64,000 nucleotides of DNA from Loxodes magnus (taxonomy: Eukaryota; Ciliophora; Karyorelictea; Loxodida; Loxodidae): positions 186,001 through 250,000 of the forward strand of contig CAMPDV010000364.1 in assembly GCA_946699065.1 (NCBI GenBank), given 5' to 3'. The notes beneath the pieces are model-generated. The model had not been told where the DNA came from. It ran no database searches and saw only the letters and a list, made by a program, of their open reading frames with translations. Shown here in pieces: positions 23,417 to 62,274 of this stretch (position 1 is its first letter; each line of letters starts with the position of its first letter). The translations under genes and the position numbers were made by a program.

Positions 23417-23542
23417 CGTCTAATCATAACTTCCCGATACGATGAACTCTGAATCACTGGATATAGCCACATATAATACAGAATTAGTGTGACCACTCAT
23501 GGTCTTACAGGTACCTGTCTTGACGTCACATAGTCTCACCGT

Positions 23543-25140: not shown

Positions 25141-25740
<600 letters not shown>

Positions 25741-28581: not shown

Positions 28582-28707
28582 CGTCTAATCATTACTTCCC
28601 GATACGATGAACTCTGAATCACTGGATATAGCCAAAGATAATACAGAATTAGTGTGACCACTCATGGTCTTACAGGTACCTGTCTTGACGTCACATAGTC
28701 TCACCGT

Positions 28708-33008: not shown

Positions 33009-33134
33009 CGTCTAATCATTACTTCCCGATACGATGAACTCTGAATCACTGGATATAGCCAAAGATAATACAGAATTAGTGTGACCACTCATGGTCTTAC
33101 AGGTACCTGTCTTGACGTCACATAGTCTCACCGT

Positions 33135-37561: not shown

Positions 37562-38173
37562 CTAATCATTACTTCCCGATACGATGAACTCTGAATCACT
37601 GGATATAGCCACATATAATACAGAATTAGTGTGACCACTCATGGTCTTACAGGTACCTGTCTTGACGTCCCATAGTCTCACCGTATAATCATAACTTCCC
37701 GATACGATGAACTCTGAATCACTGGATATAGCCACAGCATATACATGACTAGTGTGACCACTCATGATCTTACAGGTACCTGTCTTGACGTCACATAGTC
37801 TCACCGTATTATCTGCACTTCCCGATACGATGAACTCTGAATCACTGGATATAGCCACAGCAAATACATGACTAGTGTGACCACTCATGGTCTTACAGGT
37901 AACTGTCTTGACGTCACATAGTCTCACCGTCTTATCTCTACTTCCCGATACGATGAACTCTGAATCACTGGATATAGCCACAGCATATACATGACTAGTG
38001 TGACCACTCATGGTCTTACAGGTACCTGTCTTGACGTCCCATAGTCTCACCGTCTTATCTCTACTTCCCGATACGATGAACTCTGAATCACTGGATATAG
38101 CCACAGCATATACATAATTAGTGTGACCACTCATGGTCTTACAGGTACCTGTCTTGACGTCCCATAGTCTCAC
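37562..38173 (-). CDS. Five-unit WD40 open stretch, repeat of 33135
   Basis: Same product as 33135-33746, lying one 36-unit period further on. Flanked by TAG at x41 on both sides; the next open run (38300-38788, 162 codons) begins one unit further up. Confidence 0.3.
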   Translation of the reverse strand: MRLWDVKTGTCKTMSGHTNYVYAVAISSDSEFIVSGSRDKTVRLWDVKTGTCKTMSGHTSHVYAVAISSDSEFIVSGSRDKTVRLCDVKTVTCKTMSGHTSHVFAVAISSDSEFIVSGSADNTVRLCDVKTGTCKIMSGHTSHVYAVAISSDSEFIVSGSYDYTVRLWDVKTGTCKTMSGHTNSVLYVAISSDSEFIVSGSND

Positions 38174-38914
38174 CGTCTAATCATTACTTCCCGATACGAT
38201 GAACTCTGAATCACTGGATATAGCCAAAGATAATACAGAATTAGTGTGACCACTCATGGTCTTACAGGTACCTGTCTTGACGTCACATAGTCTCACCGTC
38301 TAATCATTACTTCCCGATACGATGAACTCTGAATCACTGGATATAGCCACATATAATACAGAATTAGTGTGACCACTCATGGTCTTACAGGTACCTGTCT
38401 TGACGTCCCATAGTCTCACCGTATAATCATAACTTCCCGATACGATGAACTCTGAATCACTGGATATAGCCACAGCATATACATGACTAGTGTGACCACT
38501 CATGATCTTACAGGTACCTGTCTTGACGTCACATAGTCTCACCGTATTATCTGCACTTCCCGATACGATGAACTCTGAATCACTGGATATAGCCACAGCA
38601 TATACATAATTAGTGTGACCACTCATGATCTTACAGGTACCTGTCTTGACGTCCCATAGTCTCACCGTCTTATCTCTACTTCCCGATACGATGAACTCTG
38701 AATCACTGGATATAGCCACAGCATATACATGACTAGTGTGACCACTCATGGTCTTACAGGTACCTGTCTTGACGTCACATAGTCTCACCGTCTAATCATT
38801 ACTTCCCGATACGATGAACTCTGAATCACTGGATATAGCCAAAGATAATACAGAATTAGTGTGACCACTCATGGTCTTACAGGTACCTGTCTTGACGTCA
38901 CATAGTCTCACCGT

Positions 38915-39526
38915 CTAATCATTACTTCCCGATACGATGAACTCTGAATCACTGGATATAGCCACAGATAATACAGAATTAGTGTGACCACTCATGGTCT
39001 TACAGGTACCTGTCTTGACGTCCCATAGTCTCACCGTCTTATCTCTACTTCCCGATACGATGAACTCTGAATCACTGGATATAGCCACAGCATATACATA
39101 ATTAGTGTGACCACTCATGGTCTTACAGGTACCTGTCTTGACGTCACATAGTCTCACCGTATTATCTCTACTTCCCGATACGATGAACTCTGAATCACTG
39201 GATATAGCCACAGCATATACAGAATTAGTGTGACCACTCATGGTCTTACAGGTACCTGTCTTGACGTCCCATAGTCTCACCGTCTTATCTCTACTTCCCG
39301 ATACGATGAACTCTGAATCACTGGATATAGCCACAGCATATACAGAATTAGTGTGACCACTCATGGTCTTACAGGTACCTGTCTTGACGTCCCATAGTCT
39401 CACCGTCTTATCTCTACTTCCCGATACGATGAACTCTGAATCACTGGATATAGCCACAGCATATACATAATTAGTGTGACCACTCATGGTCTTACAGGTA
39501 CCTGTCTTGACGTCACATAGTCTCAC
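38915..39526 (-). CDS. Five-unit WD40 open stretch, repeat of 30061
   Basis: Same product as 30061-30672. Its intact state here and there supports treating the extra C at 34830 in the middle copy as a recent change or a consensus error. Confidence 0.3.
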   Translation of the reverse strand: MRLCDVKTGTCKTMSGHTNYVYAVAISSDSEFIVSGSRDKTVRLWDVKTGTCKTMSGHTNSVYAVAISSDSEFIVSGSRDKTVRLWDVKTGTCKTMSGHTNSVYAVAISSDSEFIVSGSRDNTVRLCDVKTGTCKTMSGHTNYVYAVAISSDSEFIVSGSRDKTVRLWDVKTGTCKTMSGHTNSVLSVAISSDSEFIVSGSND

Positions 39527-42500
39527 CGTCTAATCATTACTTCCCGATACGATGAACTCTGAATCACTGGATATAGCCACAGATAATACATGACTAGTGT
39601 GACCACTCATGGTCTTACAGGTACCTGTCTTGACGTCCCATAGTCTCACCGTCTAATCATTACTTCCCGATACGATGAACTCTGAATCACTGGATATAGC
39701 AACAGCAAATACATGACTAGTGTGACCACTCATGGTCTTACAGGTAACTGTCTTGACGTCACATAGTCTCACCGTATAATCTGCACTTCCCGATACGATG
39801 AACTCTGAATCACTGGATATAGCCACAGCATATACATAATTAGTGTGACCACTCATGGTCTTACAGGTACCTGTCTTGACGTCCCATAGTCTCACCGTCT
39901 AATCATTACTTCCCGATACGATGAACTCTGAATCACTGGATATAGCCACAGCATATACATAATTAGTGTGACCACTCATGGTCTTACAGGTACCTGTCTT
40001 GACGTCCCATAGTCTCACCGTATTATCATAACTTCCCGATACGATGAACTCTGAATCACTGGATATAGCCACAGCATATACATAATTAGTGTGACCACTC
40101 ATGGTCTTACAGGTAACTGTCTTGACGTCCCATAGTCTCACCGTCTAATCATGACTTTCCGATACGATGAACTCTGAATCACTGGATATAGCCACAGCAT
40201 ATACATGACTAGTGTGACCACTCATGGTCTTACAGGTACCTGTCTTGACGTCCCATAGTCTCACCGTCTAATCATTACTTCCCGATACGATGAACTCTGA
40301 ATCACTGGATATAGCCACAGCATATACATGACTAGTGTGACCACTCATGGTCTTACAGGTACCTGTCTTGACGTCCCATAGTCTCACCGTCTAATCATTA
40401 CTTCCCGATACGATGAACTCTGAATCACTGGATATAGCAACAGCAAATACATGACTAGTGTGACCACTCATGGTCTTACAGGTACCTGTCTTGACGTCCC
40501 ATAGTCTCACCGTATTATCTGCACTTCCCGATACGATGAACTCTGAATCACTGGATATAGCCACAGCATATACATGACTAGTGTGACCACTCATGGTCTT
40601 ACAGGTACCTGTCTTGACGTCCCATAGTCTCACCGTCTAATCATTACTTCCCGATACGATGAACTCTGAATCACTGGATATAGCAACAGCAAATACATAA
40701 TTAGTGTGACCACTCATGGTCTTACAGGTACCTGTCTTGACGTCCCATAGTCTCACCGTATTATCATAACTTCCCGATACGATGAACTCTGAATCACTGG
40801 ATATAGCCACAGATAATACATGACTAGTGTGACCACTCATGGTCTTACAGGTACCTGTCTTGACGTCCCATAGTCTCACCGTCTAATCATTACTTCCCGA
40901 TACGATGAACTCTGAATCACTGGATATAGCCACAGCATATACATGACTAGTGTGACCACTCATGGTCTTACAGGTACCTGTCTTGACGTCACATAGTCTC
41001 ACCGTCTAATCATTACTTCCCGATACGATGAACTCTGAATCACTGGATATAGCCAAAGATAATACAGAATTAGTGTGACCACTCATGGTCTTACAGGTAC
41101 CTGTCTTGACGTCACATAGTCTCACCGTCTAATCATTACTTCCCGATACGATGAACTCTGAATCACTGGATATAGCCACAGATAATACAGAATTAGTGTG
41201 ACCACTCATGGTCTTACAGGTACCTGTCTTGACGTCCCATAGTCTCACCGTCTTATCTCTACTTCCCGATACGATGAACTCTGAATCACTGGATATAGCC
41301 ACAGCATATACATAATTAGTGTGACCACTCATGGTCTTACAGGTACCTGTCTTGACGTCCCATAGTCTCACCGTATTATCATAACTTCCCGATACGATGA
41401 ACTCTGAATCACTGGATATAGCCACAGCATATACATAATTAGTGTGACCACTCATGGTCTTACAGGTAACTGTCTTGACGTCCCATAGTCTCACCGTCTA
41501 ATCATGACTTTCCGATACGATGAACTCTGAATCACTGGATATAGCCACAGCATATACATGACTAGTGTGACCACTCATGGTCTTACAGGTACCTGTCTTG
41601 ACGTCCCATAGTCTCACCGTCTAATCATTACTTCCCGATACGATGAACTCTGAATCACTGGATATAGCCACAGCATATACATGACTAGTGTGACCACTCA
41701 TGGTCTTACAGGTACCTGTCTTGACGTCCCATAGTCTCACCGTCTAATCATTACTTCCCGATACGATGAACTCTGAATCACTGGATATAGCAACAGCAAA
41801 TACATGACTAGTGTGACCACTCATGGTCTTACAGGTACCTGTCTTGACGTCCCATAGTCTCACCGTATTATCATTACTTCCCGATACGATGAACTCTGAA
41901 TCACTGGATATAGCCACAGCATATACATGACTAGTGTGACCACTCATGGTCTTACAGGTACCTGTCTTGACGTCCCATAGTCTCACCGTCTAATCATTAC
42001 TTCCCGATACGATGAACTCTGAATCACTGGATATAGCAACAGCAAATACATAATTAGTGTGACCACTCATGGTCTTACAGGTACCTGTCTTGACGTCCCA
42101 TAGTCTCACCGTATTATCATAACTTCCCGATACGATGAACTCTGAATCACTGGATATAGCCACAGATAATACATGACTAGTGTGACCACTCATGGTCTTA
42201 CAGGTACCTGTCTTGACGTCCCATAGTCTCACCGTCTAATCATTACTTCCCGATACGATGAACTCTGAATCACTGGATATAGCCACAGCATATACATGAC
42301 TAGTGTGACCACTCATGGTCTTACAGGTACCTGTCTTGACGTCACATAGTCTCACCGTCTAATCATTACTTCCCGATACGATGAACTCTGAATCACTGGA
42401 TATAGCCAAAGATAATACAGAATTAGTGTGACCACTCATGGTCTTACAGGTACCTGTCTTGACGTCACATAGTCTCACCGTCTAATCATTACTTCCCGAT

Positions 42501-42929
42501 ACGATGAACTCTGAATCACTGGATATAGCCACAGATAATACAGAATTAGTGTGACCACTCATGGTCTTACAGGTACCTGTCTTGACGTCCCATAGTCTCA
42601 CCGTCTTATCTCTACTTCCCGATACGATGAACTCTGAATCACTGGATATAGCCACAGCATATACATAATTAGTGTGACCACTCATGGTCTTACAGGTACC
42701 TGTCTTGACGTCCCATAGTCTCACCGTCTAATCATAACTTCCCGATACGATGAACTCTGAATCACTGGATATAGCCACATATAATACAGAATTAGTGTGA
42801 CCACTCATGGTCTTACAGGTACCTGTCTTGACGTCCCATAGTCTCACTGTCTAATCATAACTTCCCGATACGATGAACTCTGAATCACTGGATATAGCCA
42901 CAGCATATACATAATTAGTGTGACCACTC

Positions 42930-45900
42930 TGGTCTTACAGGTACCTGTCTTGACGTCCCATAGTCTCACCGTCTAATCATTACTTCCCGATACGATGAAC
43001 TCTGAATCACTGGATATAGCCACAGCATATACATAATTAGTGTGACCACTCATGGTCTTACAGGTACCTGTCTTGACGTCACATAGTCTCACCGTCTAAT
43101 CATTACTTCCCGATACGATGAACTCTGAATCACTGGATATAGCCAAAGATAATACAGAATTAGTGTGACCACTCATGGTCTTACAGGTACCTGTCTTGAC
43201 GTCACATAGTCTCACCGTCTAATCATTACTTCCCGATACGATGAACTCTGAATCACTGGATATAGCCACATATAATACAGAATTAGTGTGACCACTCATG
43301 GTCTTACAGGTACCTGTCTTGACGTCCCATAGTCTCACCGTCTTATCTCTACTTCCCGATACGATGAACTCTGAATCACTGGATATAGCCACAGCATATA
43401 CATAATTAGTGTGACCACTCATGGTCTTACAGGTACCTGTCTTGACGTCACATAGTCTCACCGTATTATCTGCACTTCCCGATACGATGAACTCTGAATC
43501 ACTGGATATAGCCACAGATAATACAGAATTAGTGTGACCACTCATGGTCTTACAGGTACCTGTCTTGACGTCCCATAGTCTCACCGTATAATCATAACTT
43601 CCCGATACGATGAACTCTGAATCACTGGATATAGCCACAGCATATACATGACTAGTGTGACCACTCATGATCTTACAGGTACCTGTCTTGACGTCACATA
43701 GTCTCACCGTATTATCTGCACTTCCCGATACGATGAACTCTGAATCACTGGATATAGCCACAGCATATACATAATTAGTGTGACCACTCATGATCTTACA
43801 GGTACCTGTCTTGACGTCCCATAGTCTCACCGTCTTATCTCTACTTCCCGATACGATGAACTCTGAATCACTGGATATAGCCACAGCATATACATAATTA
43901 GTGTGACCACTCATGGTCTTACAGGTACCTGTCTTGACGTCCCATAGTCTCACCGTCTAATCATAACTTCCCGATACGATGAACTCTGAATCACTGGATA
44001 TAGCCACAGATAATACAGAATTAGTGTGACCACTCATGGTCTTACAGGTACCTGTCTTGACGTCCCATAGTCTCACCGTCTAATCATTACTTCCCGATAC
44101 GATGAACTCTGAATCACTGGATATAGCCAAAGATAATACAGAATTAGTGTGACCACTCATGGTCTTACAGGTACCTGTCTTGACGTCCAATAGTCTCACC
44201 GTCTAATCATAACTTACCGATACGATGAACTCTGAATCACTGGATATAGCCACAGCATATACTTAATTAGTGTGACCACTCATGGTCTTACAGGTACCTG
44301 TCTTGACGTCCCATAGTCTCACCGTCTAATCATTACTTCCCGATACGATGAACTCTGAATCACTGGATATAGCAACAGCAAATACATAATTAGTGTGACC
44401 ACTCATGGTCTTACAGGTACCTGTCTTGACGTCCCATAGTCTCACCGTATTATCATAACTTCCCGATACGATGAACTCTGAATCACTGGATATAGCAACA
44501 GCATATACATGACTAGTGTGACCACTCATGGTCTTACAGGTACCTGTCTTGACGTCCCATAGTCTCACCGTCTAATCATTACTTCCCGATACGATGAACT
44601 CTGAATCACTGGATATAGCCACAGCATATACATGACTAGTGTGACCACTCATGGTCTTACAGGTACCTGTCTTGACGTCACATAGTCTCACCGTCTAATC
44701 ATTACTTCCCGATACGATGAACTCTGAATCACTGGATATAGCCAAAGATAATACAGAATTAGTGTGACCACTCATGGTCTTACAGGTACCTGTCTTGACG
44801 TCACATAGTCTCACCGTCTAATCATAACTTCCCGATACGATGAACTCTGAATCACTGGATATAGCCACAGATAATACAGAATTAGTGTGACCACTCATGG
44901 TCTTACAGGTACCTGTCTTGACGTCCAATAGTCTCACCGTCTAATCATGACTTTCCGATACGATGAACTCTGAATCACTGGATATAGCCACAGATAATAC
45001 ATGACTAGTCTGACCACTCATGGTCTTACAGGTACCTGTCTTGACGTCCCATAGTCTCACCGTCTAATCATAACTTCCCGATACGATGAACTCTGAATCA
45101 CTGGATATAGCCACAGCATATACATGACTAGTGTGACCACTCATGGTCTTACAGGTACCTGTCTTGACTTCACATAGTCTCACCGTCTAATCATTACTTC
45201 CCGATACGATGAACTCTGAATCACTGGATATAGCCACAGCATATACATGACTAGTGTGACCACTCATGATCTTACAGGTAACTGTCTTGACGTCCCATAG
45301 TCTCACCGTCTAATCATGACTTTCCGATACGATGAACTCTGAATCACTGGATATAGCCACAGCATATACATGACTAGTGTGACCACTCATGGTCTTACAG
45401 GTACCTGTCTTGACGTCCCATAGTCTCACCGTCTTATCTCTACTTCCCGATACGATGAACTCTGAATCACTGGATATAGCCACAGCATATACAGAATTAG
45501 TGTGACCACTCATGGTCTTACAGGTACCTGTCTTGACGTCCCATAGTCTCACCGTCTAATCATAACTTCCCGATACGATGAACTCTGAATCACTGGATAT
45601 AGCCACATATAATACAGAATTAGTGTGACCACTCATGGTCTTACAGGTACCTGTCTTGACGTCCCATAGTCTCACTGTCTAATCATAACTTCCCGATACG
45701 ATGAACTCTGAATCACTGGATATAGCCACAGCATATACATAATTAGTGTGACCACTCATGGTCTTACAGGTACCTGTCTTGACGTCCCATAGTCTCACCG
45801 TCTAATCATTACTTCCCGATACGATGAACTCTGAATCACTGGATATAGCCACAGCATATACATAATTAGTGTGACCACTCATGGTCTTACAGGTACCTGT

Positions 45901-48900
45901 CTTGACGTCACATAGTCTCACCGTCTAATCATTACTTCCCGATACGATGAACTCTGAATCACTGGATATAGCCAAAGATAATACAGAATTAGTGTGACCA
46001 CTCATGGTCTTACAGGTACCTGTCTTGACGTCCAATAGTCTCACCGTCTTATCTCTACTTCCCGATACGATGAACTCTGAATCACTGGATATAGCCACAG
46101 CATATACATAATTAGTGTGACCACTCATGGTCTTACAGGTACCTGTCTTGACGTCCCATAGTCTCACCGTCTTATCTCTACTTCCCGATACGATGAACTC
46201 TGAATCACTGGATATAGCCACAGATAATACATGACTAGTCTGACCACTCATGGTCTTACAGGTACCTGTCTTGACGTCCCATAGTCTCACCGTCTAATCA
46301 TAACTTCCCGATACGATGAACTCTGAATCACTGGATATAGCCACAGCATATACATGACTAGTGTGACCACTCATGGTCTTACAGGTACCTGTCTTGACGT
46401 CCCATAGTCTCACCGTCTAATCATTACTTCCCGATACGATGAACTCTGAATCACTGGATATAGCAACAGCAAATACATGACTAGTGTGACCACTCATGGT
46501 CTTACAGGTAACTGTCTTGACGTCCCATAGTCTCACCGTATTATCTGCACTTCCCGATACGATGAACTCTGAATCACTGGATATAGCCACAGCATATACA
46601 TGACTAGTGTGACCACTCATGGTCTTACAGGTACCTGTCTTGACGTCCCATAGTCTCACCGTCTAATCATTACTTCCCGATACGATGAACTCTGAATCAC
46701 TGGATATAGCCACAGCATATACATAATTAGTGTGACCACTCATGGTCTTACAGGTACCTGTCTTGACGTCCCATAGTCTCACCGACTAATCATGACTTCC
46801 CGATACGATGAACTCTGAATCACTGGATATAGCCACAGCATATACATAATTAGTGTGACCACTCATGGTCTTACAGGTACCTGTCTTGACGTCCCATAGT
46901 CTCACCGTATTATCATTACTTCCCGATACGATGAACTCTGAATCACTGGATATAGCCACAGCATATACATGACTAGTGTGACCACTCATGGTCTTACATG
47001 TACCTGTCTTGACGTCCCATAGTCTCACCGTCTAATCATTACTTCCCGATACGATGAACTCTGAATCACTGGATATAGCCACAGCATATACATAATTAGT
47101 GTGACCACTCATGGTCTTACAGGTACCTGTCTTGACGTCACATAGTCTCACCGTCTTATCTCTACTTCCCGATACGATGAACTCTGAATCACTGGATATA
47201 GCCACAGCATATACATAATTAGTGTGACCACTCATGGTCTTACAGGTACCTGTCTTGACGTCCCATAGTCTCACCGTCTAATCATTACTTCCCGATACGA
47301 TGAACTCTGAATCACTGGATATAGCCACAGCATATACATAATTAGTGTGACCACTCATGGTCTTACAGGTACCTGTCTTGACGTCCCATAGTCTCACCGT
47401 CTAATCATTACTTCCCGATACGATGAACTCTGAATCACTGGATATAGCAACAGCATATACATAATTAGTGTGACCACTCATGGTCTTACAGGTACCTGTC
47501 TTGACGTCACATAGTCTCACCGTCTAATCATTACTTCCCGATACGATGAACTCTGAATCACTGGATATAGCAACAGCAAATACATGACTAGTGTGACCAC
47601 TCATGGTCTTACAGGTACCTGTCTTGACGTCCCATAGTCTCACCGTATTATCTGCACTTCCCGATACGATGAACTCTGAATCACTGGATATAGCCACAGC
47701 ATATACATGACTAGTGTGACCACTCATGGTCTTACAGGTACCTGTCTTGACGTCCCATAGTCTCACCGTCTTATCTCTACTTCCCGATACGATGAACTCT
47801 GAATCACTGGATATAGCCACAGCATATACATAATTAGTGTGACCACTCATGGTCTTACAGGTACCTGTCTTGACGTCACATAGTCTCACCGTCTAATCAT
47901 TACTTCCCGATACGATGAACTCTGAATCACTGGATATAGCCACAGATAATACATGACTAGTGTGACCACTCATGGTCTTACAGGTACCTGTCTTGACGTC
48001 CCATAGTCTCACCGTCTAATCATTACTTCCCGATACGATGAACTCTGAATCACTGGATATAGCAACAGCAAATACATGACTAGTGTGACCACTCATGGTC
48101 TTACAGGTAACTGTCTTGACGTCACATAGTCTCACCGTATAATCTGCACTTCCCGATACGATGAACTCTGAATCACTGGATATAGCCACAGCATATACAT
48201 AATTAGTGTGACCACTCATGGTCTTACAGGTACCTGTCTTGACGTCCCATAGTCTCACCGTCTAATCATTACTTCCCGATACGATGAACTCTGAATCACT
48301 GGATATAGCCACAGATAATACAGAATTAGTGTGACCACTCATGGTCTTACAGGTACCTGTCTTGACGTCCCATAGTCTCACCGTATTATCATAACTTCCC
48401 GATACGATGAACTCTGAATCACTGGATATAGCCACAGCATATACATAATTAGTGTGACCACTCATGGTCTTACAGGTAACTGTCTTGACGTCCCATAGTC
48501 TCACCGTCTAATCATGACTTTCCGATACGATGAACTCTGAATCACTGGATATAGCCACAGCATATACATGACTAGTGTGACCACTCATGGTCTTACAGGT
48601 ACCTGTCTTGACGTCCCATAGTCTCACCGTCTAATCATTACTTCCCGATACGATGAACTCTGAATCACTGGATATAGCCACAGCATATACATGACTAGTG
48701 TGACCACTCATGGTCTTACAGGTACCTGTCTTGACGTCCCATAGTCTCACCGTCTAATCATTACTTCCCGATACGATGAACTCTGAATCACTGGATATAG
48801 CAACAGCAAATACATGACTAGTGTGACCACTCATGGTCTTACAGGTACCTGTCTTGACGTCCCATAGTCTCACCGTATTATCTGCACTTCCCGATACGAT

Positions 48901-51900
48901 GAACTCTGAATCACTGGATATAGCCACAGCATATACATGACTAGTGTGACCACTCATGGTCTTACAGGTACCTGTCTTGACGTCCCATAGTCTCACCGTC
49001 TAATCATTACTTCCCGATACGATGAACTCTGAATCACTGGATATAGCAACAGCAAATACATAATTAGTGTGACCACTCATGGTCTTACAGGTACCTGTCT
49101 TGACGTCCCATAGTCTCACCGTATTATCATAACTTCCCGATACGATGAACTCTGAATCACTGGATATAGCCACAGATAATACATGACTAGTGTGACCACT
49201 CATGGTCTTACAGGTACCTGTCTTGACGTCCCATAGTCTCACCGTCTAATCATTACTTCCCGATACGATGAACTCTGAATCACTGGATATAGCCACAGCA
49301 TATACATGACTAGTGTGACCACTCATGGTCTTACAGGTACCTGTCTTGACGTCACATAGTCTCACCGTCTAATCATTACTTCCCGATACGATGAACTCTG
49401 AATCACTGGATATAGCCAAAGATAATACAGAATTAGTGTGACCACTCATGGTCTTACAGGTACCTGTCTTGACGTCACATAGTCTCACCGTCTAATCATT
49501 ACTTCCCGATACGATGAACTCTGAATCACTGGATATAGCCACAGATAATACAGAATTAGTGTGACCACTCATGGTCTTACAGGTACCTGTCTTGACGTCC
49601 CATAGTCTCACCGTCTTATCTCTACTTCCCGATACGATGAACTCTGAATCACTGGATATAGCCACAGCATATACAGAATTAGTGTGACCACTCATGGTCT
49701 TACAGGTAACTGTCTTGACGTCCCATAGTCTCACCGTATTATCATAACTTCCCGATACGATGAACTCTGAATCACTGGATATAGCCACAGCATATACATA
49801 ATTAGTGTGACCACTCATGGTCTTACAGGTAACTGTCTTGACGTCCCATAGTCTCACCGTCTAATCATGACTTTCCGATACGATGAACTCTGAATCACTG
49901 GATATAGCCACAGCATATACATGACTAGTGTGACCACTCATGGTCTTACAGGTACCTGTCTTGACGTCCCATAGTCTCACCGTCTAATCATTACTTCCCG
50001 ATACGATGAACTCTGAATCACTGGATATAGCCACAGCATATACATGACTAGTGTGACCACTCATGGTCTTACAGGTACCTGTCTTGACGTCCCATAGTCT
50101 CACCGTCTAATCATTACTTCCCGATACGATGAACTCTGAATCACTGGATATAGCAACAGCAAATACATGACTAGTGTGACCACTCATGGTCTTACAGGTA
50201 CCTGTCTTGACGTCCCATAGTCTCACCGTATTATCTGCACTTCCCGATACGATGAACTCTGAATCACTGGATATAGCCACAGCATATACATGACTAGTGT
50301 GACCACTCATGGTCTTACAGGTACCTGTCTTGACGTCCCATAGTCTCACCGTCTAATCATTACTTCCCGATACGATGAACTCTGAATCACTGGATATAGC
50401 AACAGCAAATACATAATTAGTGTGACCACTCATGGTCTTACAGGTACCTGTCTTGACGTCCCATAGTCTCACCGTATTATCATAACTTCCCGATACGATG
50501 AACTCTGAATCACTGGATATAGCCACAGATAATACATGACTAGTGTGACCACTCATGGTCTTACAGGTACCTGTCTTGACGTCCCATAGTCTCACCGTCT
50601 AATCATTACTTCCCGATACGATGAACTCTGAATCACTGGATATAGCCACAGCATATACATGACTAGTGTGACCACTCATGGTCTTACAGGTACCTGTCTT
50701 GACGTCACATAGTCTCACCGTCTAATCATTACTTCCCGATACGATGAACTCTGAATCACTGGATATAGCCAAAGATAATACAGAATTAGTGTGACCACTC
50801 ATGGTCTTACAGGTACCTGTCTTGACGTCACATAGTCTCACCGTCTAATCATTACTTCCCGATACGATGAACTCTGAATCACTGGATATAGCCACAGCAT
50901 ATACATGACTAGTGTGACCACTCATGGTCTTACAGGTACCTGTCTTGACGTCCCATAGTCTCACCGTCTAATCATTACTTCCCGATACGATGAACTCTGA
51001 ATCACTGGATATAGCAACAGCAAATACATGACTAGTGTGACCACTCATGGTCTTACAGGTACCTGTCTTGACGTCCCATAGTCTCACCGTATTATCTGCA
51101 CTTCCCGATACGATGAACTCTGAATCACTGGATATAGCCACAGCATATACATGACTAGTGTGACCACTCATGGTCTTACAGGTACCTGTCTTGACGTCCC
51201 ATAGTCTCACCGTCTAATCATTACTTCCCGATACGATGAACTCTGAATCACTGGATATAGCAACAGCAAATACATAATTAGTGTGACCACTCATGGTCTT
51301 ACAGGTACCTGTCTTGACGTCCCATAGTCTCACCGTCTAATCATTACTTCCCGATACGATGAACTCTGAATCACTGGATATAGCCACAGCATATACATAA
51401 TTAGTGTGACCACTCATGGTCTTACAGGTACCTGTCTTGACGTCACATAGTCTCACCGTCTAATCATTACTTCCCGATACGATGAACTCTGAATCACTGG
51501 ATATAGCCAAAGATAATACAGAATTAGTGTGACCACTCATGGTCTTACAGGTACCTGTCTTGACGTCACATAGTCTCACCGTCTAATCATTACTTCCCGA
51601 TACGATGAACTCTGAATCACTGGATATAGCCACATATAATACAGAATTAGTGTGACCACTCATGGTCTTACAGGTACCTGTCTTGACGTCCCATAGTCTC
51701 ACCGTCTTATCTCTACTTCCCGATACGATGAACTCTGAATCACTGGATATAGCCACAGCATATACATAATTAGTGTGACCACTCATGGTCTTACAGGTAC
51801 CTGTCTTGACGTCACATAGTCTCACCGAATTATCTGCACTTCCCGATACGATGAACTCTGAATCACTGGATATAGCCACAGATAATACAGAATTAGTGTG

Positions 51901-54900
51901 ACCACTCATGGTCTTACAGGTACCTGTCTTGACGTCCCATAGTCTCACCGTATAATCATTACTTCCCGATACGATGAACTCTGAATCACTGGATATAGCC
52001 ACAGCATATACATGACTAGTGTGACCACTCATGATCTTACAGGTACCTGTCTTGACGTCACATAGTCTCACCGTATTATCTGCACTTCCCGATATGATGA
52101 ACTCTGAATCACTGGATATAGCCACAGCATATACATAATTAGTGTGACCACTCATGATCTTACAGGTACCTGTCTTGACGTCCCATAGTCTCACCGTCTT
52201 ATCTCTACTTCCCGATACGATGAACTCTGAATCACTGGATATAGCCACAGCATATACATAATTAGTGTGACCACTCATGGTCTTACAGGTACCTGTCTTG
52301 ACGTCCCATAGTCTCACCGTCTAATCATAACTTCCCGATACGATGAACTCTGAATCACTGGATATAGCCACAGATAATACAGAATTAGTGTGACCACTCA
52401 TGGTCTTACAGGTACCTGTCTTGACGTCCCATAGTCTCACCGTCTAATCATTACTTCCCGATACGATGAACTCTGAATCACTGGATATAGCCAAAGATAA
52501 TACAGAATTAGTGTGACCACTCATGGTCTTACAGGTACCTGTCTTGACGTCCAATAGTCTCACCGTCTAATCATAACTTACCGATACGATGAACTCTGAA
52601 TCACTGGATATAGCCACAGCATATACTTAATTAGTGTGACCACTCATGGTCTTACAGGTACCTGTCTTGACGTCCCATAGTCTCACCGTCTAATCATTAC
52701 TTCCCGATACGATGAACTCTGAATCACTGGATATAGCAACAGCAAATACATGACTAGTGTGACCACTCATGGTCTTACAGGTACCTGTCTTGACGTCCCA
52801 TAGTCTCACCGTATTATCTGCACTTCCCGATACGATGAACTCTGAATCACTGGATATAGCCACAGCATATACATAATTAGTGTGACCACTCATGGTCTTA
52901 CAGGTAACTGTCTTGACGTCCCATAGTCTCACCGTCTAATCATGACTTTCCGATACGATGAACTCTGAATCACTGGATATAGCCACAGCATATACATGAC
53001 TAGTGTGACCACTCATGGTCTTACAGGTACCTGTCTTGACGTCCCATAGTCTCACCGTCTAATCATTACTTCCCGATACGATGAACTCTGAATCACTGGA
53101 TATAGCCACAGATAATACATGACTAGTGTGACCACTCATGGTCTTACAGGTACCTGTCTTGACGTCCCATAGTCTCACCGTCTAATCATTACTTCCCGAT
53201 ACGATGAACTCTGAATCACTGGATATAGCCACAGCATATACATGACTAGTGTGACCACTCATGGTCTTACAGGTACCTGTCTTGACGTCCCATAGTCTCA
53301 CCGTCTAATCATTACTTCCCGATACGATGAACTCTGAATCACTGGATATAGCCACAGATAATACAGAATTAGTGTGACCACTCATGGTCTTACAGGTACC
53401 TGTCTTGACGTCCCATAGTCTCACCGTCTAATCATTACTTCCCGATACGATGAACTCTGAATCACTGGATATAGCCAAAGATAATACAGAATTAGTGTGA
53501 CCACTCATGGTCTTACAGGTACCTGTCTTGACGTCCAATAGTCTCACCGTCTAATCATAACTTACCGATACGATGAACTCTGAATCACTGGATATAGCCA
53601 CAGCATATACTTAATTAGTGTGACCACTCATGGTCTTACAGGTACCTGTCTTGACGTCCCATAGTCTCACCGTCTAATCATTACTTCCCGATACGATGAA
53701 CTCTGAATCACTGGATATAGCAACAGCAAATACATGACTAGTGTGACCACTCATGGTCTTACAGGTACCTGTCTTGACGTCCCATAGTCTCACCGTATTA
53801 TCTGCACTTCCCGATACGATGAACTCTGAATCACTGGATATAGCCACAGCATATACATAATTAGTGTGACCACTCATGGTCTTACAGGTAACTGTCTTGA
53901 CGTCCCATAGTCTCACCGTCTAATCATGACTTTCCGATACGATGAACTCTGAATCACTGGATATAGCCACAGCATATACATGACTAGTGTGACCACTCAT
54001 GGTCTTACAGGTACCTGTCTTGACGTCCAATAGTCTCACCGTCTAATCATGACTTTCCGATACGATGAACTCTGAATCACTGGATATAGCCACAGATAAT
54101 ACATGACTAGTGTGACCACTCATGGTCTTACAGGTACCTGTCTTGACGTCCCATAGTCTCACCGTCTAATCATTACTTCCCGATACGATGAACTCTGAAT
54201 CACTGGATATAGCCACAGCATATACATGACTAGTGTGACCACTCATGGTCTTACAGGTACCTGTCTTGACGTCCCATAGTCTCACCGTCTAATCATTACT
54301 TCCCGATACGATGAACTCTGAATCACTGGATATAGCCAAAGATAATACAGAATTAGTGTGACCACTCATGGTCTTACAGGTACCTGTCTTGACGTCACAT
54401 AGTCTCACCGTCTAATCATAACTTCCCGATACGATGAACTCTGAATCACTGGATATAGCCACAGATAATACAGAATTAGTGTGACCACTCATGGTCTTAC
54501 AGGTACCTGTCTTGACGTCCAATAGTCTCACCGTCTAATCATGACTTTCCGATACGATGAACTCTGAATCACTGGATATAGCCACAGATAATACATGACT
54601 AGTGTGACCACTCATGGTCTTACAGGTACCTGTCTTGACGTCCCATAGTCTCACCGTCTAATCATTACTTCCCGATACGATGAACTCTGAATCACTGGAT
54701 ATAGCCACAGCATATACATGACTAGTGTGACCACTCATGGTCTTACAGGTACCTGTCTTGACGTCACATAGTCTCACCGTCTAATCATTACTTCCCGATA
54801 CGATGAACTCTGAATCACTGGATATAGCCAAAGATAATACAGAATTAGTGTGACCACTCATGGTCTTACAGGTACCTGTCTTGACGTCACATAGTCTCAC

Positions 54901-56986
54901 CGTCTAATCATTACTTCCCGATACGATGAACTCTGAATCACTGGATATAGCCACAGATAATACAGAATTAGTGTGACCACTCATGGTCTTACAGGTACCT
55001 GTCTTGACGTCCCATAGTCTCACCGTCTTATCTCTACTTCCCGATACGATGAACTCTGAATCACTGGATATAGCCACAGCATATACAGAATTAGTGTGAC
55101 CACTCATGGTCTTACAGGTACCTGTCTTGACGTCCCATAGTCTCACCGTCTAATCATAACTTCCCGATACGATGAACTCTGAATCACTGGATATAGCCAC
55201 ATATAATACAGAATTAGTGTGACCACTCATGGTCTTACAGGTACCTGTCTTGACGTCCCATAGTCTCACTGTCTAATCATAACTTCCCGATACGATGAAC
55301 TCTGAATCACTGGATATAGCCACAGCATATACATAATTAGTGTGACCACTCATGGTCTTACAGGTACCTGTCTTGACGTCCCATAGTCTCACCGTCTAAT
55401 CATTACTTCCCGATACGATGAACTCTGAATCACTGGATATAGCCACAGCATATACATAATTAGTGTGACCACTCATGGTCTTACAGGTACCTGTCTTGAC
55501 GTCACATAGTCTCACCGTCTAATCATTACTTCCCGATACGATGAACTCTGAATCACTGGATATAGCCAAAGATAATACAGAATTAGTGTGACCACTCATG
55601 GTCTTACAGGTACCTGTCTTGACGTCACATAGTCTCACCGTCTAATCATTACTTCCCGATACGATGAACTCTGAATCACTGGATATAGCCACATATAATA
55701 CAGAATTAGTGTGACCACTCATGGTCTTACAGGTACCTGTCTTGACGTCCCATAGTCTCACCGTCTTATCTCTACTTCCCGATACGATGAACTCTGAATC
55801 ACTGGATATAGCCACAGCATATACATAATTAGTGTGACCACTCATGGTCTTACAGGTACCTGTCTTGACGTCACATAGTCTCACCGTATTATCTGCACTT
55901 CCCGATACGATGAACTCTGAATCACTGGATATAGCCACAGATAATACAGAATTAGTGTGACCACTCATGGTCTTACAGGTACCTGTCTTGACGTCCCATA
56001 GTCTCACCGTCTAATCATAACTTCCCGATACGATGAACTCTGAATCACTGGATATAGCCACAGCATATACATGACTAGTGTGACCACTCATGATCTTACA
56101 GGTACCTGTCTTGACGTCACATAGTCTCACCGTATTATCTGCACTTCCCGATACGATGAACTCTGAATCACTGGATATAGCCACAGCATATACATAATTA
56201 GTGTGACCACTCATGATCTTACAGGTACCTGTCTTGACGTCCCATAGTCTCACCGTCTTATCTCTACTTCCCGATACGATGAACTCTGAATCACTGGATA
56301 TAGCCACAGCATATACATAATTAGTGTGACCACTCATGGTCTTACAGGTACCTGTCTTGACGTCCCATAGTCTCACCGTCTTATCTCTACTTCCCGATAC
56401 GATGAACTCTGAATCACTGGATATAGCCACAGCATATACATGACTAGTGTGACCACTCATGGTCTTACAGGTACCTGTCTTGACGTCACATAGTCTCACC
56501 GTCTAATCATTACTTCCCGATACGATGAACTCTGAATCACTGGATATAGCCACAGCATATACAGAATTAGTGTGACCACTCATGGTCTTACAGGTACCTG
56601 TCTTGACGTCACATAGTCTCACCGTCTAATCATTACTTCCCGATACGATGAACTCTGAATCACTGGATATAGCCACATATAATACAGAATTAGTGTGACC
56701 ACTCATGGTCTTACAGGTACCTGTCTTGACGTCCCATAGTCTCACCGTCTTATCTCTACTTCCCGATACGATGAACTCTGAATCACTGGATATAGCCACA
56801 GCATATACATAATTAGTGTGACCACTCATGGTCTTACAGGTACCTGTCTTGACGTCACATAGTCTCACCGTATTATCTGCACTTCCCGATACGATGAACT
56901 CTGAATCACTGGATATAGCCACAGATAATACAGAATTAGTGTGACCACTCATGGTCTTACAGGTACCTGTCTTGACGTACCATAGT
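42930..56986 (-). CDS. Longest block open if TAG is sense: about 114 WD40 units
   Basis: From the single-base deletion at 42929 down-array to the -1 lesion at 56987, every WD40 stretch keeps one minus-strand frame (the stop-proximal coordinates 43219, 44326, 45310, 46417, 48016, 49492, 51583, 53674, 55642 and 56626 are all 1 modulo 3). I find no TGA or TAA in that frame; all interruptions are TAG at x41. Read with TAG as an amino acid, it is about 4,680 residues of nothing but WD40 repeats. As glutamine, x41 gives D-Q-T-V-R-L-W-D, an ordinary WD40 turn; N, K, Y and E occupy the same site elsewhere. Under the standard code it is a string of fragments of at most 244 codons. No start or end is visible. 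The frame continuity is seen; translation is inference. Confidence 0.4.
43219..43953 (-). CDS. Six-unit WD40 open stretch, copy 4
   Basis: Same 244-residue product as at 23543, 27847 and 32274, but now at the carboxy-side end of the 14-kb TAG-only block and outside the regular 36-unit repeat. The stop at 43219-43221 is the usual TAG at x41. Confidence 0.3.
   Translation of the reverse strand: MRLWDVKTGTCKTMSGHTNYVYAVAISSDSEFIVSGSRDKTVRLWDVKTGTCKIMSGHTNYVYAVAISSDSEFIVSGSADNTVRLCDVKTGTCKIMSGHTSHVYAVAISSDSEFIVSGSYDYTVRLWDVKTGTCKTMSGHTNSVLSVAISSDSEFIVSGSADNTVRLCDVKTGTCKTMSGHTNYVYAVAISSDSEFIVSGSRDKTVRLWDVKTGTCKTMSGHTNSVLYVAISSDSEFIVSGSND
51583..52317 (-). CDS. Six-unit WD40 open stretch, copy 5, with four private substitutions
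   Basis: 244 codons in the same unit order as the other four copies. It differs by V35I (gatatgatg at about 52091-52099), Y39N in one unit and T1S (ccgaat at about 51836). This is the most diverged of the five copies, consistent with greater age or less homogenisation at this end. Confidence 0.3.
   Translation of the reverse strand: MRLWDVKTGTCKTMSGHTNYVYAVAISSDSEFIVSGSRDKTVRLWDVKTGTCKIMSGHTNYVYAVAISSDSEFIISGSADNTVRLCDVKTGTCKIMSGHTSHVYAVAISSDSEFIVSGSNDYTVRLWDVKTGTCKTMSGHTNSVLSVAISSDSEFIVSGSADNSVRLCDVKTGTCKTMSGHTNYVYAVAISSDSEFIVSGSRDKTVRLWDVKTGTCKTMSGHTNSVLYVAISSDSEFIVSGSND
52330..54015 (-). repeat. 8-unit (984-bp) tandem duplication
   Basis: About 700 bp starting near 52330 recurs 984 bp (8 x 123) later, near 53314. 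It includes the odd unit with cttaccgatacg in place of cttcccgatacg and acttaattag in place of acataattag. The same five-unit cassette also occurs near 44090, 57240 and 58960, so it has been copied at least five times within 15 kb. Confidence 0.75.
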
Positions 56987-59900
56987 CTACGATATAATCA
57001 TTACTTCCCGATACGATGAACTCTGAATCACTGGATATAGCCACATATAATACAGAATTAGTGTGACCACTCATGGTCTTACAGGTACCTGTCTTGACGT
57101 CCCATAGTCTCACTGTCTAATCATAACTTCCCGATACGATGAACTCTGAATCACTGGATATAGCCACAGCATATACATAATTAGTGTGACCACTCTGGTC
57201 TTACAGGTACCTGTCTTGACGTCCCATAGTCTCACCGTCTAATCATTACTTCCCGATACGATGAACTCTGAATCACTGGATATAGCCAAAGATAATACAG
57301 AATTAGTGTGACCACTCATGGTCTTACAGGTACCTGTCTTGACGTCCAATAGTCTCACCGTCTAATCATAACTTACCGATACGATGAACTCTGAATCACT
57401 GGATATAGCCACAGCATATACTTAATTAGTGTGACCACTCATGGTCTTACAGGTACCTGTCTTGACGTCCCATAGTCTCACCGTCTAATCATTACTTCCC
57501 GATACGATGAACTCTGAATCACTGGATATAGCAACAGCAAATACATGACTAGTGTGACCACTCATGGTCTTACAGGTACCTGTCTTGACGTCCCATAGTC
57601 TCACCGTATTATCTGCACTTCCCGATACGATGAACTCTGAATCACTGGATATAGCCACAGCATATACATAATTAGTGTGACCACTCATGGTCTTACAGGT
57701 AACTGTCTTGACGTCCCATAGTCTCACCGTCTAATCATGACTTTCCGATACGATGAACTCTGAATCACTGGATATAGCCACAGCATATACATGACTAGTG
57801 TGACCACTCATGGTCTTACAGGTACCTGTCTTGACGTCCCATAGTCTCACCGTCTTATCATTACTTCCCGATACGATGAACTCTGAATCACTGGATATAG
57901 CCACAGATAATACATGACTAGTGTGACCACTCATGGTCTTACAGGTACCTGTCTTGACGTCCCATAGTCTCACCGTCTAATCATTACTTCCCGATACGAT
58001 GAACTCTGAATCACTGGATATAGCCACAGCATATACATGACTAGTGTGACCACTCATGGTCTTACAGGTACCTGTCTTGACGTCCCATAGTCTCACCGTC
58101 TAATCATGACTTTCCGATACGATGAACTCTGAATCACTGGATATAGCCACAGTATATACATGACTAGTGTGACCACTCATGGTCTTACAGGTAACTGTCT
58201 TGACGTCCCATAGTCTCACCGTATAATCATTACTTCCCGATACGATGAACTCTGAATCACTGGATATAGCCACAGATAATACAGAATTAGTGTGACCACT
58301 CATGGTCTTACAGGTAACTGTCTTGACGTCCCATAGTCTCACCGTATAATCTCTACTTCCCGATACGATGAACTCTGAATCACTGGATATAGCCACAGAT
58401 AATACATGACTAGTGTGACCACTCATGGTCTTACAGGTACCTGTCTTGACGTCCCATAGTCTCACCGTCTTATCTCAACTTCCCGATACGATGAACTCTG
58501 AATCACTGGATATAGCCACAGATAATACATGACTAGTGTGACCACTCATGGTCTTACAGGTACCTGTCTTGACGTCCCATAGTCTCACCGTATTATCTGC
58601 ACTTCCCGATACGATGAACTCTGAATCACTGGATATAGCCAAAGATAATACAGAATTAGTGTGACCACTCATGGTCTTACAGGTACCTGTCTTGACGTCC
58701 CATAGTCTCACCGTCTTATCTCTACTTCCCGATACGATGAACTCTGAATCACTGGATATAGCCACAGCATATACATAATTAGTGTGACCACTCATGGTCT
58801 TACAGGTACCTGTCTTGACGTCCCATAGTCTCACCGTCTAATCATAACTTCCCGATACGATGAACTCTGAATCACTGGATATAGCCACAGATAATACAGA
58901 ATTAGTGTGACCACTCATGGTCTTACAGGTACCTGTCTTGACGTCCCATAGTCTCACCGTCTAATCATTACTTCCCGATACGATGAACTCTGAATCACTG
59001 GATATAGCCAAAGATAATACAGAATTAGTGTGACCACTCATGGTCTTACAGGTACCTGTCTTGACGTCCAATAGTCTCACCGTCTAATCATAACTTACCG
59101 ATACGATGAACTCTGAATCACTGGATATAGCCACAGCATATACTTAATTAGTGTGACCACTCATGGTCTTACAGGTACCTGTCTTGACGTCCCATAGTCT
59201 CACCGTCTAATCATTACTTCCCGATACGATGAACTCTGAATCACTGGATATAGCAACAGCAAATACATGACTAGTGTGACCACTCATGGTCTTACAGGTA
59301 CCTGTCTTGACGTCCCATAGTCTCACCGTATTATCTGCACTTCCCGATACGATGAACTCTGAATCACTGGATATAGCCACAGCATATACATAATTAGTGT
59401 GACCACTCATGGTCTTACAGGTAACTGTCTTGACGTCCCATAGTCTCACCGTCTAATCATGACTTTCCGATACGATGAACTCTGAATCACTGGATATAGC
59501 CACAGCATATACATGACTAGTGTGACCACTCATGGTCTTACAGGTACCTGTCTTGACGTCCCATAGTCTCACCGTCTTATCATTACTTCCCGATACGATG
59601 AACTCTGAATCACTGGATATAGCCACAGATAATACATGACTAGTGTGACCACTCATGGTCTTACAGGTACCTGTCTTGACGTCCCATAGTCTCACCGTCT
59701 AATCATTACTTCCCGATACGATGAACTCTGAATCACTGGATATAGCCACAGCATATACATGACTAGTGTGACCACTCATGGTCTTACAGGTACCTGTCTT
59801 GACGTCCCATAGTCTCACCGTCTAATCATTACTTCCCGATACGATGAACTCTGAATCACTGGATATAGCCAAAGATAATACAGAATTAGTGTGACCACTC

Positions 59901-60840
59901 ATGGTCTTACAGGTACCTGTCTTGACGTCACATAGTCTCACCGTCTAATCATAACTTCCCGATACGATGAACTCTGAATCACTGGATATAGCCACAGATA
60001 ATACAGAATTAGTGTGACCACTCATGGTCTTACAGGTACCTGTCTTGACGTCCAATAGTCTCACCGTCTAATCATGACTTTCCGATACGATGAACTCTGA
60101 ATCACTGGATATAGCCACAGATAATACATGACTAGTGTGACCACTCATGGTCTTACAGGTACCTGTCTTGACGTCCCATAGTCTCACCGTCTAATCATTA
60201 CTTCCCGATACGATGAACTCTGAATCACTGGATATAGCCACAGCATATACATGACTAGTGTGACCACTCATGGTCTTACAGGTACCTGTCTTGACGTCAC
60301 ATAGTCTCACCGTCTAATCATTACTTCCCGATACGATGAACTCTGAATCACTGGATATAGCCAAAGATAATACAGAATTAGTGTGACCACTCATGGTCTT
60401 ACAGGTACCTGTCTTGACGTCACATAGTCTCACCGTCTAATCATTACTTCCCGATACGATGAACTCTGAATCACTGGATATAGCCACAGATAATACAGAA
60501 TTAGTGTGACCACTCATGGTCTTACAGGTACCTGTCTTGACGTCCCATAGTCTCACCGTCTTATCTCTACTTCCCGATACGATGAACTCTGAATCACTGG
60601 ATATAGCCACAGCATATACAGAATTAGTGTGACCACTCATGGTCTTACAGGTACCTGTCTTGACGTCCCATAGTCTCACCGTCTAATCATAACTTCCCGA
60701 TACGATGAACTCTGAATCACTGGATATAGCCACATATAATACAGAATTAGTGTGACCACTCATGGTCTTACAGGTACCTGTCTTGACGTCCCATAGTCTC
60801 ACTGTCTAATCATAACTTCCCGATACGATGAACTCTGAAT
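54166..60840 (-). repeat. Direct duplication at 5,533 bp (54166-55300 and 59699-60840)
   Basis: The block at 54904-55146 is repeated at 60437-60679, and flanking units match from about 54166 and 59699. The spacing is 45 x 123 minus 2, which equals the two single-base deletions at 56987-56996 and 57195 lying between the copies. The match ends near 55300/60840, where the strand a residues differ (catatac versus tataatac). Confidence 0.7.
57196..59827 (-). repeat. 14-unit (1,722-bp) tandem duplication
   Basis: About 900 bp from 57196 to 58105 recurs at 58918 to 59827. Matching landmarks are 57485 with 59207 and 57731 with 59453, each 1,722 bp (14 x 123) apart. The duplicated part contains the cttaccgatacg / acttaattag cassette and the unit at 57850 whose x41 is AAG with N39. 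Between the two copies lie divergent units, including a TGA at 58475. Confidence 0.75.
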
Positions 60841-62274
60841 CACTGGATATAGCCACATATAATACAGAATTAGTGTGACCACTCATGGTCTTACAGGTAC
60901 CTGTCTTGACGTCCCATAGTCTCACCGTCTTATCTGCACTTCACGATACGATGAACTCTGAATCACTGGATATAGCCACATCATATACTTAATTAGTGTG
61001 ACCACTCATGGTCTTACAGGTACCTGTCTTGACGTCCCATAGTCTCACCGTCTAATCATTACTTCCCGATACGATGAACTCTGAATCACTGGATATAGCC
61101 ACAGCATATACATAATTAGTGTGACCACTCATGGTCTTACAGGTACCTGTCTTGACGTCCCATAGTCTCACCGTCTTATCTCTACTTCCCGATACGATGA
61201 ACTCTGAATCACTGGATATAGCCACAGCATATACATGACTAGTGTGACCACTCATGGTCTTACAGGTACCTGTCTTGACGTCACATAGTCTCACCGTATT
61301 ATCTGCACTTCGCTATACGATGAACTCTGAATCACTGGATATAGCCACAGCATATACATAATTAGTGTGACCACTCATGGTCTTACATGTACCTGTCTTG
61401 ACGTCCCATAGTCTCACCGTATAATCATAACTTCCCGATACGATGAACTCTGAATCACTGGATATAGCCACAGCATATACATGACTAGTGTGACCACTCA
61501 TGGTCTTACAGGTACCTGTCTTGACGTCACATAGTCTCACCGTCTAATCATTACTTCCCGATACGATGAACTCTGAATCACTGGATATAGCCAAAGATAA
61601 TACAGAATTAGTGTGACCACTCATGATCTTACAGGTACCTGTCTTGACGTCCCATAGTCTCACCGTCTAATCATAACTTCCCGATACGATGAACTCTGAA
61701 TCACTGGATATAGCCACAGCATATACATGACTAGTGCGACCACTCATGGTCTTACAGGTACATGTCTTGACGTCCCATAGTCTCACCGTCTAATCATTAC
61801 TTCCCGATACGATGAACTCTGAATCACTGGATATAGCCACAGCATATACATAATTAGTGTGACCACTCATGGTCTTACAGGTACCTGTCTTGACGTCCCA
61901 TAGTCTCACCGTCTAATCATTACTTCCCGATACGATGAACTCTGAATCACTGGATATAGCCACAGCATATACATAATTAGTGTGACCACTCATGGTCTTA
62001 CAGGTACCTGTCTTGACGTCACATAGTCTCACCGTCTAATCATTACTTCCCGATACGATGAACTCTGAATCACTGGATATAGCCACATCATATACATAAT
62101 TAGTGTGACCACTCATGGTCTTACAGGTACCTGTCTTGACGTCCCATAGTCTCACCGTCTAATCATTACTTCCCGATACGATGAACTCTGAATCACTGGA
62201 TATAGCCACAGCATATACATAATTAGTGTGACCACTCATGGTCTTACAGGTACCTGTCTTGACGTCCCATAGTC
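58478..62274 (-). pseudogene. TAG-only block, about 31 WD40 units
   Basis: Frame 2 modulo 3 from the TGA at 58475-58477 to the -1 lesion at 62275-62284. One unit at 61313-61315 has TAG at residue 36 (Ser codon tcg changed to tag) together with G37R, and lacks TAG at x41. Open stretches include 119 codons just inside the lower border (58475-58834) and several two-unit runs. Confidence 0.35.

Follow-up and report, generated by a model that had tools for sequence, protein, structure and literature searches.

WD40 blades that are almost identical within a gene are known from the HNWD/NWD genes het-d, het-e and het-r of Podospora anserina, where they evolve in concert and vary mostly at two pairs of codons, each pair flanking a conserved codon and the two conserved codons lying 18 apart (PMC1805685, PMC2873952). 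These papers describe four NWD blade codons as being under diversifying selection in fungal receptors, and count some 70 such repeats in P. anserina. In highly-repetitive WD40 proteins, too, repeats that are very alike within a protein differ at interaction hotspots (PMC5587647). Karyorelict ciliates, to which Loxodes magnus belongs, use a nuclear code (NCBI table 27) in which TAA and TAG specify glutamine and TGA is either tryptophan or stop, and the L. magnus MAC assembly has been reported to contain 231 Mbp of tandem repeats (PMC11441545). The main text of the latter paper makes no mention of WD40 or a satellite. A literature search found no paper joining Loxodes with WD40, and no WD40-coding satellite of this kind was recognised by title among the matches listed.

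A tandem array of WD40 blades

The window, that is, the whole stretch of 64,000 nucleotides analysed here, is filled by a tandem array on the minus strand (1..64000), whose 123-bp unit encodes one 41-residue WD40 blade and which extends past both ends of the window in contig C364. It reaches about 295.9 kb in this contig, which was sampled in 18 stretches (176 kb) together with the 64-kb window; the parts outside the sample are 10-20, 30-40, 50-60, 70-80, 90-100, 110-120 and 280-290 kb and others near the right end. The window holds 520 unit copies, and the unit was matched on 14 contigs. Redundancy is high: the window's 491 units of exactly 123 bp comprise 120 distinct sequences. Long, homogenised head-to-tail arrays at many loci, as expected of satellite DNA, are thus what is found. 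The flank of the array has a GC content of 22-24%, and ORF length gives no information on whether it is coding. The upstream edge of the C364 array (L025) was considered as a gene start and rejected, TGA occurring within 20 codons in the array frame; no Pfam family was hit at E 0.01 by a 162-residue piece of this edge, whose frame may differ from that of the array.

Seven units containing five TAG codons (46276..47136, minus strand), read by table 27, are predicted to form a seven-bladed WD40 propeller. The WD40 profile PF00400 was matched with an E value of 2.9e-83, and the predicted fold (pLDDT 93.7) has 5yzv as its best structural match (TM 0.94). Counting unit codons from VRLWD, the codons x20, x22, x38 and x40 were the four most variable of the 41 in each of three data sets, namely the window, the sampled rest of the contig and five other contigs (1,758 units used; the other-contig set comprised 91 units of the 5 contigs, ranked without later small pieces of C29, C54, C77 and C412). 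These codons flank the conserved Val and the conserved Asp of the blade, at sites where WD40 proteins bind partners, and are predicted to form a binding surface. Their spacing is that of the four selected codons in the fungal NWD blades (PMC1805685, PMC2873952), the correspondence being a mapping by spacing. In the blades, the diversity at two codon pairs is of the HNWD type; HNWD-type genes also encode a NACHT domain and an effector domain ahead of the WD40 repeats and act in self/non-self recognition.

At the variable codons, which were chosen for their variability, nonsynonymous exceeds synonymous change by 27 to 2, and the ratio for the codons outside the seven most variable is 0.78, near neutral. 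Such a background, the presence of in-frame TAA, TAG and TGA at the variable codons and the non-independence of related arrays as samples would all suit mutation hotspots or the chance survival of old satellite variants instead of selection on a binding surface. We consider this rather unlikely, since under table 27 the three triplets are Q and W and not stops, all three data sets rank the same four codons first, and the equivalent codons had been named beforehand by the work on fungal NWD genes.

Abundance in the assembly

An exact 26-base core occurs 388,546 times in the assembly, corresponding to about 47.8 Mb or ~6.8% of its 705,730,643 bases. The scale is far from that of the HNWD/NWD repeats of P. 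anserina, and the 123-bp satellite is presumably part of the 231 Mbp of L. magnus tandem repeats. An artefact of assembly could have inflated it, as misassembled low-complexity repeats are held to be the likely cause of the size difference between two L. magnus assemblies (PMC11441545). This appears unlikely for the satellite: the reversed control contained none of the exact cores, and low-complexity shares are reported in the same source to be similar in unassembled MIC and MAC reads.

Frame breaks and gene-like loci

Units of 121, 122 or 124 bp account for 28 of 519 in the window, and each of them breaks the frame, so that the array does not form a single gene with one unbroken reading frame. 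Sixteen of the 28 cluster at 2132..20097 (minus strand), where frame-shifting indels recur and have been copied along with the repeats. As 91 of 93 odd-length intervals change the frame (three indel types covering 64 of the 93), the window is a satellite and not a single gene.

The alternative that the arrays are giant or multiple coding genes, read by table 27 between frame breaks, draws on the single frame held over runs of up to 114 units, on the propeller fold predicted for the units and on the absence of odd-length units both from three sampled stretches (L016, L018 and L021, with 79, 80 and 47 units) and from four of the first five loci from other contigs. Against the frame-altering intervals with their copied indels, the near-neutral change outside the seven most variable codons and an array extending over about 295.9 kb of the sampled contig, we regard it as very unlikely.

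Array-type blades were also found in gene-like loci, often close to contig ends. Pieces of one of these on contig C2 (231300-233040), read except for 239 bases in its middle, encode pentapeptide repeats, diverged WD40 blades and array-type blades, one of the latter with TAG at x40. A gene-like locus of the family has, by our count, three array-type blades among the diverged blades of a seven-bladed propeller. The orientation of gene-like loci was assessed for 32 of 150 rows, those on contigs C1-C200. Pentapeptide repeats adjoin the blades in these loci, unlike in the HNWD/NWD genes (PMC1805685, PMC2873952). The highly-repetitive cases of PMC5587647 are proteins, whereas the majority of the copies examined in this genome belong to arrays with a broken frame. 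The C364 locus is not one gene but a satellite, most probably built from blades of a pentapeptide-repeat/WD40 gene family.

The open stretch and its TAG codons

The minus strand of 42,930-56,986, the stretch of the original prediction, does consist of successive 41-codon WD40 units. The longest run without a frame change (42971..56991, minus strand) comprises 114 units in 14,021 bp. All of its 76 in-frame TAG codons are at x40 (x41 in the numbering of the original prediction), which bears out the proposal that the interruptions are TAG at one fixed codon of the unit. In the window as a whole, 491 units are 123 bp long; their x40 codon is TAG in 307, AAT in 73, AAG in 62, TAT in 44 and GAG in five. 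The standard code does leave only ~0.7 kb open, as had been stated: the longest stop-free run on the minus strand is 735 bp, and one of the 244-residue open reading frames under this code (43219..43953, minus strand) consists of units without TAG at x40. The original prediction had also found neither TGA nor TAA inside; TGA is indeed absent from the run, but three TAA are present, all at x20 (units 53548..53670, 44200-44322 and 52564-52686, minus strand). TAG as the only added sense codon does not open 14 kb as proposed. It gives 8,361 bp (44266..52626, minus strand), and 14,151 bp requires both TAA and TAG to be sense.

The length of the run proves nothing about the code, because frames of 14 kb are open under wrong codes too: with TAA and TGA as sense and TAG as stop, 14,502 bp are free of stops in another minus-strand frame and 14,196 bp in a plus-strand frame. 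Openness here is a consequence of indel-free tandem repetition and is uninformative on the genetic code, and after this control it was dropped as evidence. More generally, no genetic code can be argued from the length of an open frame within a tandem repeat. Elsewhere in the sampled parts of C364, both TAA (at x20 and x38) and TGA (at x22, x36 and x38) are common (44 of 1,805 units, too far from the consensus, were excluded from these codon counts). The repeated-TAG pattern is therefore not specific to TAG outside the 14-kb stretch.

Genetic code in conserved genes

Evidence for the code came from genes unrelated to the array. Two eRF1 genes (L033 and L034; the analysis left out L032, the best match of its search) contain internal TAA and TAG and terminate at TGA, which accordingly serves as a stop, and in both the Q of the GGQ motif is encoded by TAA. 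They were compared with the eRF1 chain of 3e1y, which we take to be the human protein. In the aligned blocks, to which all facing counts refer, Q stands opposite TAA at 6 of 12 and opposite TAG at 2 of 6 positions in L033, the corresponding values for L034 being 7 of 14 and 1 of 5. In a mitochondrial-type HSP70 gene (L055), Q stands opposite TAA at 6 of 10 positions and opposite TAG at 3 of 7. Pooled over the three genes, in-frame TAA and TAG meet a human Q more often than any other residue. Judged from these alignments, the evidence for glutamine appears strong for TAA and modest for TAG, and for TAG from eRF1 alone it would be thin.

Among the 68 places of an HSP70 search, 31 high-scoring ones contain at least 15 TAA/TAG each and no TGA; TGA is present in 18 of the 68, mainly in partial copies on contig C854. 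TGA as tryptophan within genes was found at the W of the WD motif in the piece L062 of the C2 locus, and in-frame TGA occurs in 149 of 150 places matching this piece, all of one gene family.

A tRNA-Gln(CUA)-like motif of constant span gave 76 matches compared to none in the control, which are candidate tRNA genes by their pattern. Looser patterns were rejected: the first one tried matched tRNA D arms, and the others, among them one with 18 matches compared to 25 in the control and one with 194 compared to 69, were mixed with tRNA-Arg(TCT) or not above control. ARAGORN found only an Arg(TCT) tRNA on the loci read.

Since the organism's code is table 27, TAG at x40 is a plain glutamine codon of the WD40 blade. 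The proposed reading of TAG as glutamine is thus supported by eRF1 and HSP70, with a modest share for TAG itself, and both kinds of conserved gene do carry in-frame TAG, the absence of which would have spoken against it. The proposal was right about TAG as sense but incomplete, TAA also being Gln and TGA also Trp. Reassignment of TAG only is rejected because TAA and TGA are also in frame, both of them in C364, TAA in the conserved genes and TGA in the C2 locus. With the Loxodes table 27 as described in PMC11441545, the genes share TAA/TAG opposite glutamine within conserved genes and TGA both as Trp and at the gene end; no feature differing from that description was found.

A nonsense TAG that arose under the standard code in one ancestral unit and spread by amplification through a dead WD40 array would fit the strong redundancy of the units and the broken frame, but is practically untenable given internal TAA and TAG in eRF1 and HSP70 genes (31 of 68 HSP70 places) and TAG at x40 in the gene-like C2 locus. 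The conserved genes refute the standard code and not the amplification, which is still compatible with our preferred explanation. The suggestion of one codon spread in this way helps to explain the frequency of TAG (120 distinct sequences among 491 units) but not TAG inside genes.

Discussion

These results are most probably explained by the karyorelict code together with a satellite made from blades of pentapeptide-repeat/WD40 genes that were diversified and then amplified. The blades probably diversified for partner binding while inside such genes. Their subsequent expansion into long, homogenised arrays would have proceeded by unequal crossing-over and gene conversion, with frame-shifting indels copied along with the variants that carry TAG, TAA or TGA. 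Of this account, the code in actual genes, the structure of the arrays and their lost frame, the four variable codons, the copy number in the assembly and the gene-like loci are direct observations; past selection, the route of amplification and any traffic between arrays and genes are inferred.

A further possibility, which we put forward tentatively and hold to be less probable than not, is that the satellite acts as a live store of binding blades. A large pentapeptide/WD40 family near contig ends (perhaps subtelomeres), pointing outward, might take up exchangeable propeller blades by gene conversion from array copies that number in the hundreds of thousands. A recognition repertoire would then be stored as satellite DNA, and its variants at the binding codons would include Gln (TAG/TAA) and Trp (TGA).

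The code change itself is known biology, already described for karyorelict ciliates (PMC11441545), and it is the repeat that would matter. The surprise is one WD40 blade, most variable at its predicted binding surface, multiplied to hundreds of thousands of copies. The four codons diversified by fungal recognition receptors also vary most in a blade that makes up a sizeable part of the assembly, and the gene-like loci hold only a few array-type blades, the bulk being in frame-broken arrays where examined. A link between satellite DNA and the generation of diverse receptors in a protist would follow, together with a countable system for asking whether satellites feed genes by conversion.

Position of TAG codons and reading frame

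The original prediction assigned the in-frame TAG codons between 42,930 and 56,986 to a single fixed position in the unit of a WD40 array, and this was borne out by the in-frame run 42,971-56,991, where 76 of 76 TAG codons occupy x40 (codons x1-x41 are numbered from the VRLWD motif of the 41-codon unit), with three TAA codons at x20 and no TGA. The longest open run measures 8,361 bp when TAG alone is read as sense and 14,151 bp when TAA and TAG both are. In an indel-free tandem repeat, a frame that contains one stop type stays open from end to end as soon as that stop counts as sense, and a wrong-code control (TAA and TGA as sense) left two wrong frames open, a minus-strand frame over 14,502 bp and a plus-strand frame over 14,196 bp. 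Because indel-free repeats open under wrong codes too, the long open frame is no evidence for the code.

Genetic code of conserved genes

TAG had also been predicted to be a sense codon, which is supported by in-frame TAG in eRF1 and HSP70 genes, with the correction that TAA is likewise sense there. The N-terminal domain of eRF1 matched three places in the assembly, all three with internal TAA and TAG, and the reading frames in two of the stretches read (L033 and L034) both terminate at TGA. The eRF1 chain of 3e1y was matched by the L034 protein at 2.9e-158; glutamine of this chain stands opposite 7 of 14 TAA and 1 of 5 TAG codons in L034 and opposite 6 of 12 TAA and 2 of 6 TAG codons in L033, the remaining sites facing other residues. 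In both, the glutamine of the GGQ motif is encoded by TAA. Among 68 HSP70 places, the best 31 each contain 4-11 TAG, 11-20 TAA and no TGA, and 18 of the lower 37, mostly partial copies on contig C854, contain TGA. In an aligned HSP70 (L055), glutamine stands opposite TAA at 6 of 10 sites, TAG at 3 of 7, CAA at 9 of 12 and CAG at 0 of 2. A gene-like locus on contig C2 carries TGA at the Trp position of a WD motif, that is, TGA as tryptophan, and, as we read the table, an in-frame TGA is present in 149 of the 150 places that this piece matches. A tRNA-Gln-arm pattern with a CUA anticodon, a pattern match only with a constant span of 31 bases, occurred at 76 places versus none in a reversed control; neither of two looser patterns was decisive. 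Judged from these sequences, the code seen in the conserved genes is NCBI table 27, and the same code is given for Loxodes in PMC11441545.

Several tandem arrangements were observed alongside. The tRNA-Gln(CUA)-like motif recurs 16 times at exactly 588-base spacing in C130:557669-566519, and tandem tRNA-like matches lie in C21:1528650-1533300 (~460 bases apart) and C22:46670-52722 (~376 bases apart). HSP70 copies are tandem in C45:448589-618790 (~2.8 kb apart) and C86:512039-567512 (~2.2 kb apart), and partial pieces with up to six in-frame TGA each lie ~2.1 kb apart in C854:136105-167565. On contig C29 (L036 and L037), the conserved Trp x4 is changed from TGG to TGA in several blade units, which is silent under table 27.

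Array structure and copy number

The window (C364:186001-250000 of the 705,730,643-base assembly) is a single tandem array from end to end, coding on the minus strand, with 520.3 copies of a 123-bp unit (95% matches) whose minus-strand consensus encodes a 41-residue WD40 blade. In the sample of C364 (the window plus 18 stretches totalling 176 kb), bases from 1 to ~295,914 are nearly all array, which is absent from the remainder of stretch L025 and all of L026. This flank (L025:5915-10000 and L026) has a GC content of 22-24% versus 43% within the array, and a tRNA search of it found none. The further apart two units lie, the less alike they are, apart from a renewed rise in similarity at ~18.6-19.6 kb; the array thus lacks a short higher-order period.

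As a whole, the array is not a single gene. In the window, 28 of 519 units deviate from 123 bp, giving 29 frame segments, and when 17 sampled stretches are taken together with the window, 91 of 93 odd-length intervals (among 1,817) change the frame. Three indel types make up 24, 22 and 18 of the 93, and therefore indels have been copied along with the repeats. The unit frame holds TAA, TAG and TGA, mostly at variable codons. On C364, the nonsynonymous/synonymous ratio (distinct changes, scaled by opportunity) is 0.78, near neutral, outside the seven most variable codons and 3.18 (27 to 2) at those seven, which were chosen for their variability.

The assembly contains 388,546 exact copies of a 26-base core of the unit, versus zero for a control, corresponding at 123 bp each to 47.8 Mb or 6.8% of the assembly. 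Of the 520 window units, 506 contain the core, and fully arrayed 10-kb stretches of ~81 units contain it 56-81 times each, so the count misses units; repeat misassembly, described in PMC11441545, could bias it in the opposite direction, too high.

Gene-like loci of the blade family

The minus-strand C2 locus, whose pieces were read separately, comprises in order pentapeptide repeats, a diverged WD40 blade, array-type blades (cores at 232273, 232150 and 232027, minus strand) and diverged blades. We count seven blades, with 239 bases mid-locus unread, and one has TAG at x40. The pentapeptide family PF00805 matched at 0.00033 in one piece (L061), just above the family cut-off, and at 0.0021 in another (L063), below it. 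The loci on contigs C3 and C5 resemble that on C2, the C-terminal match lying 227 bases past the last core at all three. This C-terminal piece matches at 150 places, all those scored, with 67-93% identity.

Within contigs C1-C200 (32 of the 150 rows), coordinates differ by strand: the 18 places on the minus strand fall between 3 and 840 kb (median ~40 kb), the 14 on the plus strand between 113 and 2,275 kb (Mann-Whitney p 1e-5). Members of this pentapeptide/WD40 gene family tend to be found close to the ends of contigs and to face outward, for example at C5:7439-7705 and, among the few contigs of determined size, at C13:1756807-1757073 (contig of 1,759,726) and C54:1021195-1021461 (contig of 1,030,188). 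The C364 array, on the minus strand at the left contig end, is consistent with this pattern. Subtelomeric families likewise lie near ends and point outward; the placement may also reflect contigs simply breaking at repeats.

Variable codons and blade fold

In fungal NWD blades, according to PMC1805685, codons 7, 9, 25 and 27 are under strong positive selection and flank conserved codons 8 and 26 at the top of the propeller. The conserved pair of the satellite unit, Val x21 and Asp x39, has the same spacing of 18. The four most variable of the 41 codons are exactly the neighbours of this pair, x20, x22, x38 and x40, in all three data sets (475 window units, 1,192 from the sampled rest of C364 and 91 from five other contigs); the chance of exactly this set is 1 in 101,270 for one data set, and the three are not independent. 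By our mapping, x20, x22 and x38 correspond to the WD40-protein hotspots R1-2, R1 and D-1 given in PMC3419727. The TAG codon x40, which varies among Q, K, E, N and Y, is thus a predicted binding position. Seven window units translated with table 27 gave a predicted propeller (pLDDT 93.7) with 5yzv as the best solved match (TM 0.94).

Thus, TAG here is an ordinary glutamine codon of an already known code, and the novelty is a satellite composed of diversified propeller blades of a gene family.
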